From: Ktedonobacterales bacterium
GTDB lineage: Bacteria; Chloroflexota; Ktedonobacteria; Ktedonobacterales; DATBGS01
Length of the DNA stretch: 64,000 bases
Direction: 5' to 3'
Assembly: GCA_036557285.1 (NCBI GenBank)
Contig: DATBHW010000052.1
Coordinates: 1 to 64,000 of the forward strand
In this document: one piece after another, positions 2,224 to 34,917 of the stretch
Numbering within the stretch: position 1 is the first letter of the stretch
Layout: each line of letters opens with the position of its first letter
Translations under genes and position numbers: made by a program
The notes under the pieces: generated by a model
The model's database searches: none
The model's input: the letters and a program-made list of their open reading frames with translations, nothing else
Told to the model about the DNA's origin: nothing

Positions 2224-3135
2224 GTGGAACAAGTACAGCAGGCACTTCCCGCCTCAATTGATGATGTTCTCGCCGCGCTGTCCGCGCAGCGCTACATCGC
2301 AGACCGCAGTCTGGCGACAACGATTTACCTGGCGCTCAAGCGCCACAAGCCCCTGCTACTGGAAGGCGAGGCGGGCGTTGGCAAGACGGAGATCGCCAAG
2401 GTGCTTGCCAGTATGCTGGATACCCGGCTGATTCGCCTCCAATGCTACGAGGGGATTGATGTCAATACAGCCGTCTATGAATGGAACTACACGCGCCAGA
2501 TGCTGCACATTCGGCTGCTGGAGGCCAGCGGGGCCAACAACGATGCGGCCATGCAGGACATCTTTGGCCCGGAGTTTTTGATTCGCCGCCCATTGTTGGA
2601 AGCGATTGATCCCGGCAATAAGAAAGCGCCAGTGCTGCTCATTGATGAGCTTGATCGCAGCGATGAAGAGTTTGAGGCGTTCCTGCTGGAAATCCTCTCG
2701 GATTTCCAGGTGACGGTGCCAGAGATCGGCACGCTGACGGCCCCGGAGCCGCCCATCGTCGTCATCACCTCCAACCGCACGCGCGAGATTCACGATGCCC
2801 TGCGCCGCCGCTGCCTCTATTACTGGATTGATTATCCCACGCTGGAGAAAGAACTGGCGATTGTCCTGGCGAAAGCGCCCGAAGCCAGCGAAAAGCTGGC
2901 GCGGCAGGTCTGCATCTTTGTCAAAGAACTGCGCGCGATGGACCTCTTCAAGTCACCGGGCATCGCTGAAACGCTGGATTGGGTGAGTTCGCTGGTGACG
3001 CTGGAGATTCACGAATTGCAGGAAGGTCCGGTGCGCGATACGCTGGGCGCGCTGCTCAAGTACCAGGACGACATCGAGAAGGTTAACAGCGGCAACGCCC
3101 TGAGCAAGTTACTGCATAAAGTGATCGGCGCTTGA
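2224..3135 (+). CDS. MoxR-family AAA+ ATPase (CoxD-like)
   Basis: A 303-residue AAA+ ATPase. Walker A is GEAGVGKTE (about 48-56) and Walker B VLLIDE (137-142), with a sensor region ITSNRTREI. MoxR ATPases pair with VWA proteins to remodel or mature metalloenzymes. In CO dehydrogenase clusters the family member is CoxD. The start is GTG at 2224 with GGAGG 4-9 bases upstream. A CoxE-type VWA gene follows 44 bases later and then two XdhC/CoxI proteins, which supports a molybdo-flavoenzyme maturation role. No CoxMSL-type structural gene is in the window, so the client enzyme is not known. A TACAAT -10-like element lies near 2156. Confidence 0.88.
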   Translation: MEQVQQALPASIDDVLAALSAQRYIADRSLATTIYLALKRHKPLLLEGEAGVGKTEIAKVLASMLDTRLIRLQCYEGIDVNTAVYEWNYTRQMLHIRLLEASGANNDAAMQDIFGPEFLIRRPLLEAIDPGNKKAPVLLIDELDRSDEEFEAFLLEILSDFQVTVPEIGTLTAPEPPIVVITSNRTREIHDALRRRCLYYWIDYPTLEKELAIVLAKAPEASEKLARQVCIFVKELRAMDLFKSPGIAETLDWVSSLVTLEIHELQEGPVRDTLGALLKYQDDIEKVNSGNALSKLLHKVIGA

Positions 3136-3179: not shown

Positions 3180-4490
3180 ATGCTGCCAGAGAACAACGAC
3201 TTGCTCACCGCTCATGATCTGGAGCGCGGCCACCAGCTTCAGCGCAAGCTGGTGGAGTTCGGGCGGCTGCTCTGGGATATGGGCCTGGATGTTGGCCCGG
3301 GCCGCATGGTGGAAGCCTCGAAAACAATCAGCCTGATTGATGTTAAGAAGCGCGAGGACTTCTATCACGCGCTCAAATGCACGCTGCTCTCACGACACGA
3401 GCAGGAGCCGCTCTTTGACCAGGCGTTTTTTTACTTCTGGCAAATGAAGCACCGGCTGAGCAAGCTGGACGACAACGCCATCGTCAAGAGCGACGAAAAG
3501 CGCGGCAGCCCTATCCGTCTGCCGCCGCGCGAGCGCCAGGAACTGGAGGCGCAGGCCGCGCGCCTGACTCGCCAGTTGATGCAGCCCCAGCGCGATGCTG
3601 GCCGCGCGCGCCCATCGGATCAGGCCGATCAGAGCGACGATGACGACGATGACGAGGCCCAGGGAACCGCCTACAGCGCCATCGAGCAGCTGCGCGGCAA
3701 AGACTTCGAGTCCTATAGCTGGGAAGAGATGCAGGAGGCCAAGCGCCTGATGGCTGAGATGCACTGGCATCTCGGCGAGCGGCCCACGCGCCGCAAGGCT
3801 CCGTCGCGCAAAGGCGCCTACCCCGATCTGCGCCGCATCATTCGCCGCAATATGAAGTATGGCGGCGAGTTGATGGAACTGACCTGGCGCAAGATCAGAC
3901 GCAAGCCGCGCCCGCTGGTCATCATCTGCGACATCAGCGGCTCGATGAGCCTCTATTCGCGTCTGCTCTTGCATTTTATCCACACCATCTCCAGCGGCTT
4001 GCAGAACACCGAAGCCTTTGTCTTTGGCACGCGCCTGACGCGCATCACCCGCCAGCTTCGCAAGCGCGACGTAGATGACGCGGTACGTGACGTTTCCAAG
4101 AATGTGCAGGATTGGTCAGGCGGCACACGCATTGGCGAATGCCTGCGCGACTTTAACTATCGCTGGGCGCGGCGCGTCCTGGGGCATGGCGCGGTGGTGC
4201 TGATTATCAGCGACGGTTGGGATCGCGGCGAACCCGACGTGCTGCGGGCCGAGATGGACCGTTTGCAACACAGCAGCCACCGCCTGATCTGGCTGAACCC
4301 GCTGCTGGGCGCGGAGGATTATCGCCCGGTGACGATTGGCATGAAGACCGCGCTGCCCTTCATTGATAATTTTCTCTCGGCCCACAGCCTGGACAGCTTG
4401 CTGGAACTGGGCAAAGTGCTGGAGCAGATTGACGACAGTCGCCCCAGCCGCCGGGGGCAGGCGCGCTTGCAGCAGCTACCTGGAAGATAA
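3180..4490 (+). CDS. VWA domain-containing protein, CoxE-like
   Basis: A 436-residue partner of the upstream MoxR ATPase. A helical N-terminal half is followed by an acidic run (DDDDDDEA, about 153-160). The von Willebrand A domain carries an intact MIDAS signature D251-I-S-G-S255 (VIICDISGSM), and GGTRIGECL supplies the later MIDAS threonine region. CoxE proteins act with CoxD in assembling the active site of Mo-containing CO dehydrogenases, and this family (PF05762) is usually adjacent to it. The ATG at 3180 gives a clean family-like N-terminus; a competing start at 3173 is out of frame. The stop is 60 bases before the next gene. Confidence 0.87.
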   Translation: MLPENNDLLTAHDLERGHQLQRKLVEFGRLLWDMGLDVGPGRMVEASKTISLIDVKKREDFYHALKCTLLSRHEQEPLFDQAFFYFWQMKHRLSKLDDNAIVKSDEKRGSPIRLPPRERQELEAQAARLTRQLMQPQRDAGRARPSDQADQSDDDDDDEAQGTAYSAIEQLRGKDFESYSWEEMQEAKRLMAEMHWHLGERPTRRKAPSRKGAYPDLRRIIRRNMKYGGELMELTWRKIRRKPRPLVIICDISGSMSLYSRLLLHFIHTISSGLQNTEAFVFGTRLTRITRQLRKRDVDDAVRDVSKNVQDWSGGTRIGECLRDFNYRWARRVLGHGAVVLIISDGWDRGEPDVLRAEMDRLQHSSHRLIWLNPLLGAEDYRPVTIGMKTALPFIDNFLSAHSLDSLLELGKVLEQIDDSRPSRRGQARLQQLPGR

Positions 4491-4550: not shown

Positions 4551-4868
4551 ATGAAAGACATTTTGCCCGATGTAGAGAAGTGGCGCGCACAGGGCGCGCG
4601 CGTGGCCGTTGCAACCGTTACGGCGGTGGTTGGCTCCGCGCCACGCCAGGAAGGCGCGAAGCTGGCCGTCAGCGAGCGCGGCGAGATCAGCGGCTCCGTC
4701 AGCGGCGGCTGTGTTGAGCCAGCCGTTATTACCGCTGCCGAAGAGGTTATCAAGACCGGCACGCCGCAGATGCTCACCTTCGGCATTAGCGAAGAAGAAA
4801 ATCTGGAAAAGATCGGCCTCTCCTGCGGCGGCGAGATCAAAGTCTTCGTGGAGCGGCTGGATTGGTAG
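4551..4868 (+). CDS. XdhC/CoxI-family protein (XdhC_CoxI domain only)
   Basis: A 105-residue protein made of a single XdhC_CoxI domain. It contains the family signature GSAPRQEGAKLAV and the GSVSGGCVEPAV loop with its conserved Cys, and ends with LSCGGEIKVFVE. XdhC-type proteins bind molybdenum cofactor, promote its sulfuration and insert it into xanthine-dehydrogenase-like enzymes. Here the domain stands alone and the second domain is on the next gene, a split also seen in other bacteria. AGGAGG lies about 10 bases before the ATG. A parS site lies between this gene and the next. Confidence 0.88.
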   Translation: MKDILPDVEKWRAQGARVAVATVTAVVGSAPRQEGAKLAVSERGEISGSVSGGCVEPAVITAAEEVIKTGTPQMLTFGISEEENLEKIGLSCGGEIKVFVERLDW

Positions 4869-4872
4869 TTGA

Positions 4873-4890
4873 GTGTTTCACGTGAAACAC
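4873..4890. promoter_or_regulatory. parS centromere-like site (ParB binding)
   Basis: TGTTTCACGTGAAACA at 4874-4889 is an exact match to the bacterial chromosomal parS consensus. With the flanking bases it is an 18-bp perfect palindrome. It lies in the 42-base gap between two XdhC-type genes. In other bacteria ParB-CTP loads at such sites to organise the origin region. No parA or parB gene is in the window. I saw only this one full match. Confidence 0.88.
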
Positions 4891-4910
4891 CTGCCCGGAA
4901 AGGTCCGGCA

Positions 4911-5690
4911 ATGGCTGAAATCTACGAAACCCTCAAGGCCAGCCTGGCGAATGAGCGCCCGGTGGCGCTTGCCACGCTCGTTGGTGGCGCTGGACCGTTG
5001 GCCGCAAAGCTGCTGGTCTTTCAAGACGGCGCGACTCAGGGTACGCTGGGCAGCGCGCAGTTAAACGCGCGCGTGGCCGCAGACGCGCGCCCCATGATCT
5101 GGCAGGGCGCGGCCAAAACCATCAGCTACACCCCAGAAGCTGCTGATGAGCCGCAGGCCGGGGCGTTGGATGTCTTTATCGAAACCTTTCCGCCGCCGCA
5201 TAAGCTGGTCATCGTGGGCGCTGGGCATATCGCCATCCCGCTGACCACCTTTGGCAAAACGCTGGGCTATCGGGTGATCGTGATTGACGCGCGCGCCGCC
5301 TTTGCCACCCGCGAGCGTTTCCCCCACGCCGATGAGGTCATCTGCGAATGGCCGGATGAAGTGCTGGGAAAGCAGATACCCTTGCACGTGGCAACCGCCG
5401 CCGCTGTCCTGACACACGACCCTAAGTTCGATGAGCCGACGCTGCGCGTGCTGCTTAAGAGCGACGTAAGCTACATTGGCGCGATTGGCAGCCGCAAAAC
5501 CAGTGAGGAGCGCAGCGAGCGCCTGCGCCAGCAGGGCATCACCGACGAGCAGCTTGCGCGCATTCACGGCCCCATCGGCTTGAACATCGGCGCGGTCTCC
5601 CCTGAAGAGATGGCGCTGGCGATTATGGCCGAGATCGTGGCGGCGCGGCATGGCCGCGAACGCTCGGCAACCGCCTGGCAAACAAAATAA
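4911..5690 (+). CDS. XdhC family protein (XdhC C-terminal Rossmann domain)
   Basis: A 259-residue protein. Its N-terminal ~75 residues resemble a degenerate XdhC_CoxI half (MAEIYETLKASLANERPVAL). The XdhC C-terminal Rossmann domain begins LVIVGAGHIAIPL (about 99-111) and includes IGAIGSRKT and the GLNIGAVSPEEMALAI signature. It probably completes the split XdhC function of the preceding gene in molybdenum cofactor delivery. A TTG start at 4869 is possible in frame, but it would translate the parS palindrome. The ATG at 4911, preceded by GGAAAGG, is preferred. The gene ends the coxDEF-like operon. Confidence 0.87.
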   Translation: MAEIYETLKASLANERPVALATLVGGAGPLAAKLLVFQDGATQGTLGSAQLNARVAADARPMIWQGAAKTISYTPEAADEPQAGALDVFIETFPPPHKLVIVGAGHIAIPLTTFGKTLGYRVIVIDARAAFATRERFPHADEVICEWPDEVLGKQIPLHVATAAAVLTHDPKFDEPTLRVLLKSDVSYIGAIGSRKTSEERSERLRQQGITDEQLARIHGPIGLNIGAVSPEEMALAIMAEIVAARHGRERSATAWQTK

Positions 5691-5693
5691 ATC

Positions 5694-5757
5694 AGGGAGA
5701 GGGTTCATGCGGTATGGGGAGCGCATGCGCTCCCCATACCGCATGAACCCTCTCCCT
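5694..5757. repeat. 64-bp perfect palindrome without a loop
   Basis: The 32-base arms 5694-5725 and 5726-5757 are exact reverse complements, centred on GCGCATGCGC. The pairs 5694:5757 and inward all match; 5693:5758 does not. The palindrome sits between the xdhC stop (5690) and the Shine-Dalgarno region of the next gene (about 5762). It could be a bidirectional terminator or a cruciform site, but there is no U-tract. A perfect spacer-free palindrome this long is rare. Confidence 0.9.
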
Positions 5758-5775
5758 TGAAAGAAGGGACACATC

Positions 5776-7338
5776 ATGGCAACCGTTGAGCGCGAGCCGG
5801 TGCGCGCGCCTGAACTTTCCGGCGCGGCCTGGTTCAATACCGACCATCCCTTGACGCTGGCCGACCTCAAGGGCAAGCTGGTCCTGCTGGACTTCTGGAC
5901 CTACTGCTGCATCAACTGCATGCACATTCTGCCGGACCTCAAATACCTGGAAGAGAAATATGCCCATGAGCCGCTGGTGGTGATTGGCGTCCACTCGGCC
6001 AAGTTCGAGAACGAGAAGGATACCGACAACATCCGTAACGCCATCCTGCGCTATGGCATCAGCCATCCGGTGGTAGTTGATGTCAATCACCGCCTCTGGA
6101 ACGCCTACGCTGTGCGCGGCTGGCCGACAGTCGTTCTGGTGGACCCGGCGGGCTATCTGCTGGGTACTGTCTCTGGCGAGGGCCACCGCGAGCAGCTCGA
6201 TATGGTGATTGCCGCCGCGCTGGACGCCTATAAAGGGGCGGGGCTGCTCGATGACACGCCGCTGCCCGTCCACCTGGAAAGTGATGCCCTCGTTGATATG
6301 CCGCTCGCCTATCCTGGCAAGATCGTGGCCGACCAGACCGCCGTAGGCGCGGGCGCGCGCCTCTTCATCAGCGACAGCGGGCATCACCGCGTTGTCATCG
6401 CCACATCAGAGGGCACGCTGCTGGATACCATCGGGACCGGCGCGGCGGGCGCGGATGACGGCTCCTTTGAGGAGGCCAGCTTCAGCAATCCGCAGGGATT
6501 GGCGCTTGACGCCGAACACGACTGGCTCTATGTGGCCGATACGGACAATCACCTGCTGCGGCGGCTGGACCTCAAAGCCCGCACTGTCAAGACCGTCGCA
6601 GGCACAGGCGAGCAAGGCATCGGGCCGAACCTGAGTGCCCCCGCGCTTGAGCAACCGCTCAACTCGCCCTGGGATCTCTGCTTTGTGGATGGCCTGCTGT
6701 ATATCGCTATGGCCGGGTGTCATATGCTCTGGCTCTATGATCCGGCCAGCGAGGAACTGCGCCACGTCGCCGGAAGCGGGCGCGAAGCGCGCATTGATGG
6801 CCCGGCGCTGCGCTCGGCCTTTGCCCAGCCCAGCGGCCTGACGACCGATGGCCGCGCGCTCTACGTCGCCGACAGCGAGATCAGCAGCGTGCGCCGCGTG
6901 ACCCTGGGCGATGACGTGCAGGTCACAACCGTCGCGGGAGGCGATCTCTTCCAGTTTGGCGATGTGGACGGCCTGGGCGATCTGGCCCGCTTCCAGCATC
7001 CGCTGGGCGTGGCCTGGCACGATGGCGCGATCTACGTGGCCGACACCTATAACCACAAGATCAGGAAGGTGGACCCCGAAACGCGCCGGGCCACCAGCTT
7101 CCTGGGCGACGGCAAGCCTGGGGCCGATGACGGCGAGCAGCCGCGCTTCTACGAGCCAGGCGGCCTGAGCTTTGCGGGAGAGCGCCTCTTCATCGCCGAT
7201 ACCAACAATCACGCGATCCGCGTCGTTGATCTGGCGAGCAAAACGGTTTCCACGCTGACCATCGGCGAACTCTGCCCGCCGGGCTTCTGCCTGCCAGAGC
7301 CAGGGTTCGCGGGCAACAAAGCAGTCGAAGAAGAATAG
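5776..7338 (+). CDS. NHLRC2-like protein: thioredoxin domain plus NHL beta-propeller
   Basis: A 520-residue cytosolic protein with no signal peptide. Residues ~15-150 are a TlpA/thioredoxin-like domain with WTYCCINC (C44, C45, C48), the motif typical of NHLRC2, then GWPTVVLVDP as the cis-Pro strand. From ~170 to 500 there are repeated NHL blades with recurring phrases such as LYVADTDNHLLRRL, IYVADTYNHKIRKV and LFIADTNNHAIRVV. The architecture matches bacterial homologues of human NHLRC2, whose biochemical role is poorly defined. The start ATG is preceded by GAAAGAAGGG. The 64-bp palindrome lies immediately upstream and may affect expression. Confidence 0.9.
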   Translation: MATVEREPVRAPELSGAAWFNTDHPLTLADLKGKLVLLDFWTYCCINCMHILPDLKYLEEKYAHEPLVVIGVHSAKFENEKDTDNIRNAILRYGISHPVVVDVNHRLWNAYAVRGWPTVVLVDPAGYLLGTVSGEGHREQLDMVIAAALDAYKGAGLLDDTPLPVHLESDALVDMPLAYPGKIVADQTAVGAGARLFISDSGHHRVVIATSEGTLLDTIGTGAAGADDGSFEEASFSNPQGLALDAEHDWLYVADTDNHLLRRLDLKARTVKTVAGTGEQGIGPNLSAPALEQPLNSPWDLCFVDGLLYIAMAGCHMLWLYDPASEELRHVAGSGREARIDGPALRSAFAQPSGLTTDGRALYVADSEISSVRRVTLGDDVQVTTVAGGDLFQFGDVDGLGDLARFQHPLGVAWHDGAIYVADTYNHKIRKVDPETRRATSFLGDGKPGADDGEQPRFYEPGGLSFAGERLFIADTNNHAIRVVDLASKTVSTLTIGELCPPGFCLPEPGFAGNKAVEEE

Positions 7339-10875: not shown

Positions 10876-11274
10876 ATGGCATGGACGATAGAATATTATG
10901 AGCAGGCCGATGACACTCAACCGGCTGAGGTATTTGAAGACCGGCTAGACCGAGAACATCCCAAACTGGCAGGGAAACTCCTGGAGATTACAGCCGCACT
11001 CCGCAGCGCGGGCCATCGCTTAAGTGGGGGATATATCGAGCCATGCCGGAGCCATAGCGGCCTCTGGGAAATTCGTGTCATCCATAGCCAATGGCTGGGC
11101 CGTGAGTTCTTTGGCTTCGACGCTGAACGCATCGTTCTACTACACGGTTATGTTAAACGAGGCGGCCAGGAAGCTTCCAAGCGTGATCTTGATCTCGCGT
11201 TCGCCTATTGGGCTGACTACAAGCAAACGCGCAAGATCAGTCTAGCCAGGGAGGAAGATAATGAACCGATTTGA
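10876..11274 (+). CDS. HigB/Gp49-like toxin of a type II toxin-antitoxin system
   Basis: A 132-residue RelE-superfamily protein (phage-derived Gp49-like/HigB type). It has IEPCRSHSGLWEIRVIHS, FFGFDAERIVLLHGYVKRG and ASKRDLDLAFAYWADYK, the conserved WE(I/V)R and HG(F/Y)xKK-like core and C-terminal helix. Family toxins cleave mRNA on the ribosome. The XRE-type antitoxin gene overlaps its 3' end by 14 bases, the reversed order (toxin first) typical of higBA. The ATG at 10876 lacks a ribosome-binding site. A close paralogue of both genes lies at 62.7-63.4 kb in the same window. Confidence 0.85.
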   Translation: MAWTIEYYEQADDTQPAEVFEDRLDREHPKLAGKLLEITAALRSAGHRLSGGYIEPCRSHSGLWEIRVIHSQWLGREFFGFDAERIVLLHGYVKRGGQEASKRDLDLAFAYWADYKQTRKISLAREEDNEPI

Positions 11275-11581
11275 GCAACGCCTGCGCAAGCGGCTTCAGA
11301 ACCCAGAAGTCGCGGCGGGCTTCCGCGAAATGGCCGCTGAGCGAACGCTGCTGCAACGCCTGGAGGAAATCCGCGAGCAGCAGCAGATTACCAAAGAGGA
11401 GCTTGCGCTGCGGATGGGCAAACATCGGGAAGCGGTATCGCGGCTGCTGAACGCGAGCGACGCGAACCCAACCCTGGAAACCCTCATCGAACTGTTGATG
11501 GCGCTGGGCATTACCGCCGAAATTACCTTGCGCCCGGCAATCGAAGGTGAGGAGCCGATCAAGGTTGCGCGGGCGGGCTAA
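11261..11581 (+). CDS. XRE-family HTH antitoxin (HigA-like)
   Basis: A 106-residue protein with a helix-turn-helix at about 40-80: QQITKEELALRMGKHREAVSRLLNAS, followed by NPTLETLIELLMALG. This is typical of HigA-type antitoxins that neutralise the upstream toxin and repress the operon. It starts inside the toxin gene (14-base overlap), with GGGAGGAAGATA as the ribosome-binding region. The N-terminal helix NRFEQRLRKRLQNPEVAAGF closely matches the antitoxin encoded at 62717-63043. A strong inverted repeat follows 9 bases after the stop. Confidence 0.87.
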   Translation: MNRFEQRLRKRLQNPEVAAGFREMAAERTLLQRLEEIREQQQITKEELALRMGKHREAVSRLLNASDANPTLETLIELLMALGITAEITLRPAIEGEEPIKVARAG

Positions 11582-11590
11582 AACCAAATC

Positions 11591-11633
11591 CCGTTGAATA
11601 GTGGTTGCTACAGTAGCAACCACTATTCAACGG
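11591..11633. terminator. 21-bp inverted repeat, probable bidirectional terminator
   Basis: Arms 11591-11611 and 11613-11633 are perfect reverse complements around a single A. The repeat lies between the convergent antitoxin and dehydrogenase E2 genes. There is no U-run on either side, so it may block transcription factor-dependently or be a mobile-repeat relic. Confidence 0.6.
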
Positions 11634-11668: not shown

Positions 11669-12955
11669 CTAGACCAGCATGCCCATTGGCTCTTCCAGCA
11701 GGCGTTTCACTTCCTGAAGGAAGCGCGCGGCAGTCGCGCCATCAATAGCGCGGTGATCAATAGAAACCGTCACTTTCATGCGATCACGCACGACGACCTG
11801 CCCATCAACGACAACAGGCGTGGGGATGATCGCCCCGACGGCCAGAATAGCTGATTCGGGTGGGTTGATGACGGCGGTGAACTCCTCGACGCCAAACATA
11901 CCCATGTTGCTGATCGAGAAGGTGCCACCCTGGTAGTCTTCCGGCTTGAGCTTGTTGTTGTGAGCGGCGTCAATCAGCCGACGCGATTCGCGGGCGATCT
12001 CCAAAATGCCCCTGTGGTCAGCGTCGCGGATCACCGGCACGATCAAGCCCTGATCCAGCGCCACCGCCAGGCCAATGTTGATATGGCGCTTGAAAAGCAG
12101 GTTGTCGCCGTCAAACGAGACGTTGATCTCCGGCATACGCGCCAGCGCCAGCGCCACCGCTTTCGTAATCAGATCGTTGAAGCTGACCTTGATCGGCTCT
12201 TTTTCGGTCTGGGTAAAATCGTTGATCTGCGCGCGGAGCGCGCTCGCCTTGGTCATGTCAATCGCCATCGTGACGTAGAAGTGCGGCGCTTGCTGCATGC
12301 TCGCGGAGAGGCGGCGCGCAATAGTCTTGCGCATCTGCGTCAGCGGAACGGCGGTCACATCCTCGCCGGGCTGCGCGGCGGCAATCGCCGGAGCAGGCAC
12401 AAAGACCGGCGCGGGCGCGGCCTGCGGCTGGCGCAGGGCGTTTTCCACGTCCTCGCGGATGATGCGCCCATTGGGGCCGGTCCCCTGAATCTGGCTGATG
12501 TTCAGGTTATGCTCGGCGGCAATGCGCCGGGCAATCGGGCTGATAAAGATGCGCTCGCCCTCGACAACGCCTGCTGGCCTGGCCGCAGGCGCCGCTTGAG
12601 GCTGCGGCTGAGGCGCGGGCGCAGAGGCTGCGCGGCCATTCCCGCCGCTGGTGGACGCCTGGGCGCGGCCTGGGCTGGCCGCCTGGGCGGGAGCCTGTGG
12701 CTCCGCCTCCAGCGGCTCGTTGGGGTCGCCGACCAGCGCAATCGCTGATCCAACGGGCGCGGTCTGGCCCGCTGGCACCAGGATTTTGCGCAGCACACCG
12801 CTGGCAAAGGCTTCGATTTCCATATTGGTTTTTTCGGTCTCAACCTCCGCCACTGCCTCGCCTTTATTGACGGTATCGCCCTCTTTTTTGAGCCAGTTGA
12901 GGATTTTGCCCTCTTCCATCATATCGCTCAGCTTGGGCATAGCGATTTTATTCAT
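11669..12955 (-). CDS. pdhC: Dihydrolipoamide acyltransferase E2 of the pyruvate (2-oxo acid) dehydrogenase complex
   Basis: A 428-residue E2 core enzyme. The lipoyl domain spans about 1-77 with the lipoylation site ETEKTNMEIE (K42). A Pro/Ala-rich linker follows, then a peripheral-subunit-binding domain (ISPIARRIAAEHN ... GRIIREDV). The catalytic acyltransferase domain ends with SIDHRAIDGATAARFL, which carries the catalytic His and Asp. It transfers the acyl group from E1 to CoA. The ATG at 12955 (MNKIAMPKLSDMMEEG) with GGAGAAGAG upstream is preferred over the longer open frame. It is the last gene of the pdhA-pdhB-pdhC operon, and no E3 gene follows. Substrate (pyruvate versus branched-chain acids) is inferred. 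Confidence 0.92.
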   Translation of the reverse strand: MNKIAMPKLSDMMEEGKILNWLKKEGDTVNKGEAVAEVETEKTNMEIEAFASGVLRKILVPAGQTAPVGSAIALVGDPNEPLEAEPQAPAQAASPGRAQASTSGGNGRAASAPAPQPQPQAAPAARPAGVVEGERIFISPIARRIAAEHNLNISQIQGTGPNGRIIREDVENALRQPQAAPAPVFVPAPAIAAAQPGEDVTAVPLTQMRKTIARRLSASMQQAPHFYVTMAIDMTKASALRAQINDFTQTEKEPIKVSFNDLITKAVALALARMPEINVSFDGDNLLFKRHINIGLAVALDQGLIVPVIRDADHRGILEIARESRRLIDAAHNNKLKPEDYQGGTFSISNMGMFGVEEFTAVINPPESAILAVGAIIPTPVVVDGQVVVRDRMKVTVSIDHRAIDGATAARFLQEVKRLLEEPMGMLV

Positions 12956-12986
12956 CTTCTCTTCTCCAGAACGGAGATGCTCTCCG

Positions 12987-13982
12987 CTAGGCCCTCGCCT
13001 TCTGCGGCACAATCGCCCGGACGGCCTGCATTACATCGCTGCGCACCGGCAGGGAGGCGCGCTCCAGGTTTTTGGCATACGGCATGGGTACATCAGCGCC
13101 GCTCACATGCTGAATCGGCGCGTCCATCCAATCAAAGGCGTATTCGTAGATGAGGGAAGCGATGCCCTGGCCGGTCCCATAATACTTCCAGCCTTCCTCA
13201 ACGATGATCGCGCGGTTGGTCTTTTTCACCGAATCCAGCGCCAGATCGAGGTCGAGCGGGCGAATGGAGCGCATATCCACGACTTCGGCTTCGATGCCTT
13301 CTTTCGCCAGTTCTTCCGCTGCTTGCAGGCAGATATGCGCCATGCGCGAGAAGGTAATCAGGCTCACATCGCTGCCCTCGCGGCGCACAGTGCCGCGATC
13401 CAGCGGTACCAGATACTCTTCGTCCTCGTCGGGAACCTCGCCCTTGATGCCATAGAGCAGTTCATGCTCGATGAACAGAACGGGATCATCATCACGAACA
13501 GCCGACTTGAGCATGCCCTTGGCGTCGTAGGGCGTGGCAGGCATCACGACTTTCAGGCCGGGTACATGGGCATACCAGGACTCGAACGACTGGGAATGCT
13601 GCGCGCCACGCTGCGCGCCGCCGCCCGCTGGCATACGAATGACCAGCGGAATCCTGGTCTGGCCGCCAAACATATAATGGGCCTTGGCGGCGGTATTGAC
13701 GATCTGATCGCTCGCCAGCAGGCTGAAGTTCATGGTCATCAACTCAGCGATGGGGCGCAGCCCGCCCATCGCCGCGCCAATGGCGGTAGCGGTAATCACT
13801 TCCTCGGCCAGCGGCGTATCCAGCACGCGCTTTTCGCCAAACTCTTTATCCAGGTCTTTCGTTACCGCGTAGGTGCCGCCATAGCCCACCACATCCTCAC
13901 CGAGAATAAAGACCCGCTCATCGCGGCGCATCTCCTCGCGCATCGCTTCGCGCAGAGCGTCGCGGTAGGTAATCGTTCGCAT
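12987..13982 (-). CDS. pdhB: Pyruvate dehydrogenase E1 component, beta subunit
   Basis: A 331-residue transketolase-type subunit. It starts MRTITYRDALREAMREEM and contains RVFILGEDVVGYGG and DTPLAEEVITATAIGAAMGG. The PAGGGAQRGAQHSQSFE loop and the C-terminal transketolase domain (SLITFSRMAHICLQAAEEL, VVDMRSIRPLD) follow. With the alpha subunit it forms the ThDP-dependent decarboxylase that loads acyl groups onto E2. It lies 31 bases before E2 and 65 bases after E1-alpha in a single operon. Confidence 0.93.
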   Translation of the reverse strand: MRTITYRDALREAMREEMRRDERVFILGEDVVGYGGTYAVTKDLDKEFGEKRVLDTPLAEEVITATAIGAAMGGLRPIAELMTMNFSLLASDQIVNTAAKAHYMFGGQTRIPLVIRMPAGGGAQRGAQHSQSFESWYAHVPGLKVVMPATPYDAKGMLKSAVRDDDPVLFIEHELLYGIKGEVPDEDEEYLVPLDRGTVRREGSDVSLITFSRMAHICLQAAEELAKEGIEAEVVDMRSIRPLDLDLALDSVKKTNRAIIVEEGWKYYGTGQGIASLIYEYAFDWMDAPIQHVSGADVPMPYAKNLERASLPVRSDVMQAVRAIVPQKARA

Positions 13983-15586: not shown

Positions 15587-15621
15587 ACTTGCAGCGCCGC
15601 CTGGAAGGCGGCGCTGCAAGT
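15587..15621. repeat. GC-rich palindromic intergenic repeat (hairpin)
   Basis: ACTTGCAGCGCCGCCT and AGGCGGCGCTGCAAGT are perfect arms around a 3-base loop. This is the shortest complete unit of the dispersed family. It sits between the convergent ferredoxin and secG genes and could serve as their terminator. Confidence 0.85.
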
Positions 15622-16919: not shown

Positions 16920-16975
16920 TGTAGCGCCGTCTTCCAGGCGGCCAGCCGTTGAGCCGCCTGGAAGGCGGCGCTACA
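16920..16975. repeat. GC-rich palindromic intergenic repeat, complete two-arm unit
   Basis: Arms 16920-16942 and 16953-16975 are near-perfect inverted repeats (one mismatch) around a 10-base loop cagccgttga. The same loop and arms recur at 34856-34917. The unit lies between coxG and the dGTPase gene. Confidence 0.85.
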
Positions 16976-34855: not shown

Positions 34856-34917
34856 ACTTGCAGCGCCGCCTTCCAGGCGGCCAGCCGTTGAGCCGCCTGG
34901 AAGGCGGCGCTGCAAGT
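34856..34917. repeat. GC-rich palindromic intergenic repeat, complete two-arm unit
   Basis: ACTTGCAGCGCCGCCTTCC opens the left arm and the right arm is its inverted copy, around the loop cagccgttga. The arms extend perfectly for 26 bases. The unit lies between the MshC-like and tatD genes, both on the minus strand, 14 bases from the tatD stop. Confidence 0.9.

Follow-up and report, generated by a model that had tools for sequence, protein, structure and literature searches.

A perfect, spacer-free palindrome of 64 bp lies at positions 5694-5757 of the window, i.e., the whole 64,000-nucleotide stretch of Ktedonobacterales DNA analysed here. We interpret it, with a probability of about 0.5, as a real gene-end hairpin that would have arisen and been kept up by template switching, would act on RNA as a leaky 3'-end or processing element, and would be one of a genome-wide class. 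The genes and sequence elements around it are as follows.

2224-3135, + strand: AAA ATPase (AAA_5), in the same gene run as the xdhC-like gene; putatively CoxD-like, by its neighbourhood
3180-4490, + strand: CoxE-like VWA protein, same gene run
4551-4868, + strand: short XdhC_CoxI-domain protein, same gene run
4869-5690, + strand: XdhC/CoxI-family gene (xdhC-like; Pfam PF13478 and PF02625)
5679-5693, - strand: U-rich stretch after the hairpin in the minus-strand reading, gatttattttgt (8 T in 12)
5694-5725, + strand: left arm of the palindrome, 32 bp, AGGGAGAGGGTTCATGCGGTATGGGGAGCGCA
5726-5757, - strand: right arm, the exact reverse complement of the left arm with no spacer, TGCGCTCCCCATACCGCATGAACCCTCTCCCT
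5707-5760, + strand: 17-codon open frame inside the palindrome, MRYGERMRSPYRMNPLP, preceded by agggagaggg and ending in TGA; speculatively a leader peptide
5760-5769, + strand: probable ribosome-binding site of the NHL gene by its sequence, aaagaaggga, outside the hairpin
5776-7338, + strand: NHLRC2-like gene (NHL gene), with a thioredoxin-like domain and NHL repeats

The palindrome and its genomic setting

The palindrome starts 3 bp past the stop codon of the xdhC-like gene and ends 18 bp ahead of the ATG of the NHL gene. The original prediction had placed it between cox-like genes and an NHLRC2-like gene, and both the location and the label hold: the 5' neighbour belongs to the XdhC/CoxI family, and the product of the 3' neighbour combines a thioredoxin-like domain with NHL repeats. 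A search of public genomes with the NHL protein matched only distant bacteria, at 50-57% identity.

The two arms (32 nt each, 0 nt between them) are 100% complementary, as had been claimed, and the two mirrored copies that had been described correspond to gggttcatgcggtatgggga at 5701-5720 (+) and 5731-5750 (-). This 20-mer has no further site in the genome itself, with up to three mismatches allowed, and is not matched exactly anywhere in the public genome collection, from which the window's own genome has possibly been left out. By base composition, the chance expectation for spacer-free palindromes with 32-bp arms is about 1e-12 in 5.1 Mb at 60% GC. The arms are the longest perfect ones both in the window, where the runners-up are 26/10/26, 21/1/21, and 19/10/19 (arm/spacer/arm), and in the 1.72 Mb of the genome that were read, where they are 31/1/31 and 31/5/31. 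The 111-nt stretch containing the palindrome folds as RNA at -69.3 kcal/mol (z = -12), with a predicted stem of about 30 pairs, which bears out the proposed very stable mRNA hairpin ending a few bases 5' of the ribosome-binding site. As single-stranded DNA, the palindrome folds at -40.9 kcal/mol. Rfam matched no family at 5694-5757, and we rejected a known RNA family on this ground. Elsewhere in the window, a second near-spacerless perfect palindrome (21/1/21, 11591-11633) is flanked by an HTH gene (11261-11581) and a convergent gene (11669-13012) resembling a lipoyl-domain E2 acyltransferase.

Perfect palindromes are concentrated at gene ends

The palindrome had been presented as a singular feature, and this did not survive a census of 1.72 Mb of its own genome, in which it is one of a population of perfect gene-end palindromes. 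The census covered perfect inverted repeats with arms of at least 13 and spacers of 0-12, with genes called by a simple codon-usage script (coding fraction 82%). Intergenic positions account for 81 of the 91 repeats and for all 14 of the spacer-free ones (p about 3e-11); when the three contig-edge cases are left out, the latter are still 11/11 (p about 5e-9). Apart from a 12-bp centre common to two of them, the spacer-free palindromes share no 10-mer. The following are other long members of the population.

C3:26482-26531: spacer-free palindrome, 25/0/25; overlaps a stop codon, with the next start 16 bp away
C52:79639-79680: spacer-free palindrome, 21/0/21
C14:17006-17047: spacer-free palindrome, 21/0/21, with the next start 6 bp away
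C37:12367-12429: nearly spacer-free palindrome, 31/1/31

The density of hairpins depends on the type of gap. It is 1.22 per kb in convergent gaps, 0.39 in tandem gaps, and 0.07 in divergent gaps, the last being about 16-fold below the first (p about 1e-15), and this is a signature of transcript 3' ends. Among the hairpins in tandem gaps, 50 out of 58 are perfect. Since mutation has left so few imperfect hairpins there, the hairpins are either young or templated. A count of G-U against A-C mismatches in imperfect hairpins, used as a test of selection on RNA, gave 6 versus 2, which are small numbers. Near another palindrome (C38:1905-1942), the match between gene copies ends 60 bp short of it.

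The genome also holds other repeats and hairpins. A 16/0/16 spacer-free palindrome at L050:3150-3260, with ggtggtaccacggg before it and TTTTGTTT after it, recalls a T-box leader terminator, and Rfam gave no match there at the gathering threshold. At L117:2829-2887 (contig C32), a tandem pair of 13/1/13 palindromes jointly forms a 27/5/27 inverted repeat (AAGGGGGGACCATAATGGTCCCCCCTT...). A dispersed hairpin family, ACTTG[CT]AGCGCCGCC...GGCGGCGCTACAAGT, has members at 15587-15621, 16931-16964, and 34856-34917 of the window, and, separately, some 110 bp of sequence near C3:200509 have dozens of matches in 1.7 Mb of genome and form a REP-like repeat.

An excess of zero spacers

Among repeats with arms of at least 15, there are 11 cases with spacer 0, whereas spacers 1 to 12 average 3.8 cases each (p = 0.002). 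Spacers of 0, 2, and 4 account for 11, 2, and 3 cases, respectively, two of the 11 lying at contig ends. If an RNA tetraloop of arbitrary sequence were selected for, a ratio of about 1:3:12 would be expected, and the counts run the opposite way. A survey of 118,019 genomes found that bacteria favour spacers of 4 and that inverted repeats are strongly enriched after transcript ends (PMC13155455). Against this background, the placement of the palindromes at gene ends is ordinary, and their unusual part is the zero spacer. The excess is a lead, resting on 11 cases.

Hairpins after xdhC in relatives

The relatives searched include none from the same family, and the nearest are common with our genome only at the level of the order. 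Hairpins scoring at least 15 occur at 38 per Mb in the genome itself, at 50 in G016, and at 75 in G039 (rough values for these two relatives, from 80 kb each), with 0 in 580 kb of G010, G003, G018, and G044. In 80 loci of other bacteria, the density is 14.6 per Mb. Perfect hairpins are thus frequent in two of the sampled relatives and rare in the four others. The first of the two, G016, surpasses the palindrome at 5694-5757 with a spacer-free one of 78 bp (39/0/39, L157:16215-16292) and also has a 37/2/37 palindrome (L154:6823-6898), both within 80 kb. The second, G039, whose assembly is in two contigs, has hairpins of 37/4/37 and 28/4/28.

The orthologous xdhC is followed in G016 by an unrelated 67-bp palindrome (33/1/33, L010:1375-1441) and in G039 by an unrelated 23/4/23 hairpin (L026:2065-2114), and in neither genome is the gene after xdhC and the hairpin the NHL gene. 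Because these hairpins are unrelated and the next gene differs, the feature is tied to the xdhC end, and it is not inherited as a sequence. The predicted placement upstream of the NHL gene is accordingly right for the window, while in the relatives the hairpin follows the 3' end of xdhC and not the NHL gene. No long inverted repeat was found after the orthologous xdhC in about 18 other relatives, so a hairpin is not required there. A small hairpin after xdhC is intact in G029, degraded in G033, and missing in G025, which shows hairpin turnover at this gene end.

Comparison with known systems

We compared the palindrome with the known classes of hairpins. Like intrinsic terminators and gene-end inverted repeats, it forms a perfect GC-rich hairpin a few bases past a stop codon and belongs to a set that favours transcript-end regions, where bacterial inverted repeats are enriched, as they are downstream of stop codons (PMC6060812, PMC13155455). 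Only 3 bp separate the xdhC stop codon from the predicted stem, which has about 30 pairs. It differs from these terminators in its 32-bp arms, its position 18 bp from the next start codon, and its lack of a coding-strand U-tract, the + strand having 1 T in the 12 bases directly after the stem; a terminator scan reported none at the palindrome. A canonical intrinsic terminator would carry this tract, and the palindrome therefore does not qualify as one. It also differs from bacterial gene-end inverted repeats in its zero spacer, bacteria as a whole favouring 4. Terminators lacking a U-tract are a known class. The palindrome may be likened to them in having a stable hairpin past the stop codon and no U-run on the coding strand, and this is a likeness only.

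The hairpins attributed to template switching (PMC8794818) have exact reverse-complement arms, unique sequences, and perfect pairing, all of which are found here; the difference is that here there is a whole class at gene ends within one genome. With REP and other repetitive extragenic palindromes (PMC3733652), the palindrome has in common that it is extragenic, but these have many similar copies, whereas the arm is found only at 5694-5757 (up to three mismatches) and has no family. The repeated hairpin family ACTTG[CT]AGCGCCGCC... of the same genome is separate from it.

Alternative explanations

The palindromes may instead be a neutral by-product, template switching making them everywhere, selection purging those in genes, and functionless copies persisting for a while in the gaps. 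Such a process would fit the individual sequence of each palindrome (only one pair shares a 12-bp centre), the lack of a palindrome in most position-matched relatives, the strong differences in density among genomes of one order, and the intact, degraded, and missing states of the hairpin after xdhC in G029, G033, and G025. We regard it as possible, if doubtful. Divergent gaps are some 16-fold poorer in hairpins than convergent ones although they are equally non-coding, which argues against a purely neutral process blind to transcript ends, unless the switches are triggered by termination itself or hairpins are not tolerated in promoter regions.

A sequencing or assembly artefact had also been raised earlier; fold-back reads or a collapsed spacer would then have given a false exact palindrome. 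The assembly is a short-read-type draft of 82 contigs, of which C2, C11, and C12 have their first base precisely at a palindrome's outer edge, as fold-back would give, and there is no zero-spacer palindrome with arms of at least 13 in 560 kb of G003, G010, G044, and G039, which are assembled in one or two contigs. These contig-start palindromes (L037:1-58, L092:1-38, and L093:1-43) are either assembly breaks or fold-back ends. The suspicion is weakened by the census, as an artefact would be expected to fall in coding sequence in about 82% of cases, yet the spacer-free palindromes are intergenic without exception, with or without the contig-edge cases. Moreover, the contig ends overlap by exactly 141 bases, which gives an assembly k of 141, and the 64 bp of the palindrome fit with 77 bp of unique flank into one such k-mer. 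The two-contig assembly of G039 also carries long hairpins (37/4/37 and 28/4/28). An artefact now seems improbable.

It is equally improbable that the palindrome is an element of the DNA itself, i.e., a cruciform or a dyad operator for a dimeric regulator. Its symmetry as DNA is perfect up to and including the centre, the zero-spacer excess is in keeping with such a role, and the single strand also folds as DNA. The arms, however, are unrelated among loci and the 20-mer has no second site (up to three mismatches), so there is no shared operator, and the divergent gaps, which hold promoters, are avoided.

We consider a translational attenuator slightly less likely still. The 17-codon frame would be a leader peptide, the translation of which opens the hairpin and to which translation of the NHL gene is coupled. 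Purine-rich sequence precedes the ATG of the frame, and 15 bases separate its end from the ATG of the NHL gene, but such a short frame is likely to arise by chance in GC-rich DNA, it contains no regulatory codon run, and visual inspection showed no such frame in the spacer-free palindrome at C3:26482-26531.

Further causes were rejected. The palindrome is single copy, which excludes a dispersed repeat or insertion element, and a transposable element end (MITE or IS) is excluded because there is no other copy and the arms adjoin without an element body. Matches to Y1/REP-type transposases do not correlate with palindromes (6 in the genome itself, 1 in palindrome-rich G016, 3 in palindrome-poor G018). 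Loss of Rho is discarded because Rho is present in the genome itself and in palindrome-rich and palindrome-poor relatives alike. Loss of the palindrome-cutting nuclease SbcCD is likewise discarded: at G000:C81:55933-59010, the genome encodes a Rad50-like protein that is full-length, shares 39% identity with its G010 counterpart, and lies near an Mre11-like protein of 443 aa, and palindrome-poor relatives carry the same Rad50-like protein. Generic SbcCD models score low across the whole order. From L171 (G007:C46) and L172 (G010:C1, 4711678-4714797), Rad50-like ATPases of two different kinds seem to exist in the order, one of about 1040 aa and one of about 1300 aa. The shorter lies beside a putative NurA-like gene and the longer beside a putative Mre11-like gene, names for which there is a weak model match.

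Proposed origin and function of the gene-end hairpin

Returning to the gene-end hairpin as the preferred reading, one template-switch event is known to be enough for a perfect stem (PMC8794818), and arms that are perfect and mutually unrelated fit this mechanism. During replication, a template switch would have turned back behind the xdhC stop codon and copied about 32 bases in reverse, so that the perfect inverted duplication arose all at once, and similar switches inside such hairpins would keep the arms identical. The transcript from the cox-accessory genes would then form an RNA hairpin of about 30 bp once the terminating ribosome leaves the xdhC stop codon. This hairpin may act as a leaky 3'-end element, through a pause or partial termination of RNA polymerase, or else as a site of cleavage and a barrier to exonucleases. 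Either way, the xdhC and NHL transcripts would be partly separated and the NHL gene expressed by read-through. There is no room for a promoter between the palindrome and the NHL gene, so complete termination is unlikely if this gene is expressed from upstream. Its placement between xdhC and the NHL gene thus suggests, as the most likely function, a hairpin for processing or for a leaky 3' end.

More tentatively, some lineages of the order (this genome and G016) might have a process linked to replication or transcription by which perfect spacer-free palindromes of 40-80 bp are formed time and again at transcript 3' ends and then preserved. Each gene end would in this way acquire an unrelated hairpin of its own, used instead of a U-tract terminator. 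Palindrome-rich and palindrome-poor genomes of one order, which share Rho and the Rad50-like protein where checked, make a comparison possible. If the palindromes were a mere by-product, spacer-free palindromes of 64-78 bp would still occur alongside a Rad50/Mre11-type nuclease. If the class is real and functional, it would be a test case for the one-step origin and perfect upkeep of long hairpins, and for the way transcripts end in a poorly studied bacterial order.
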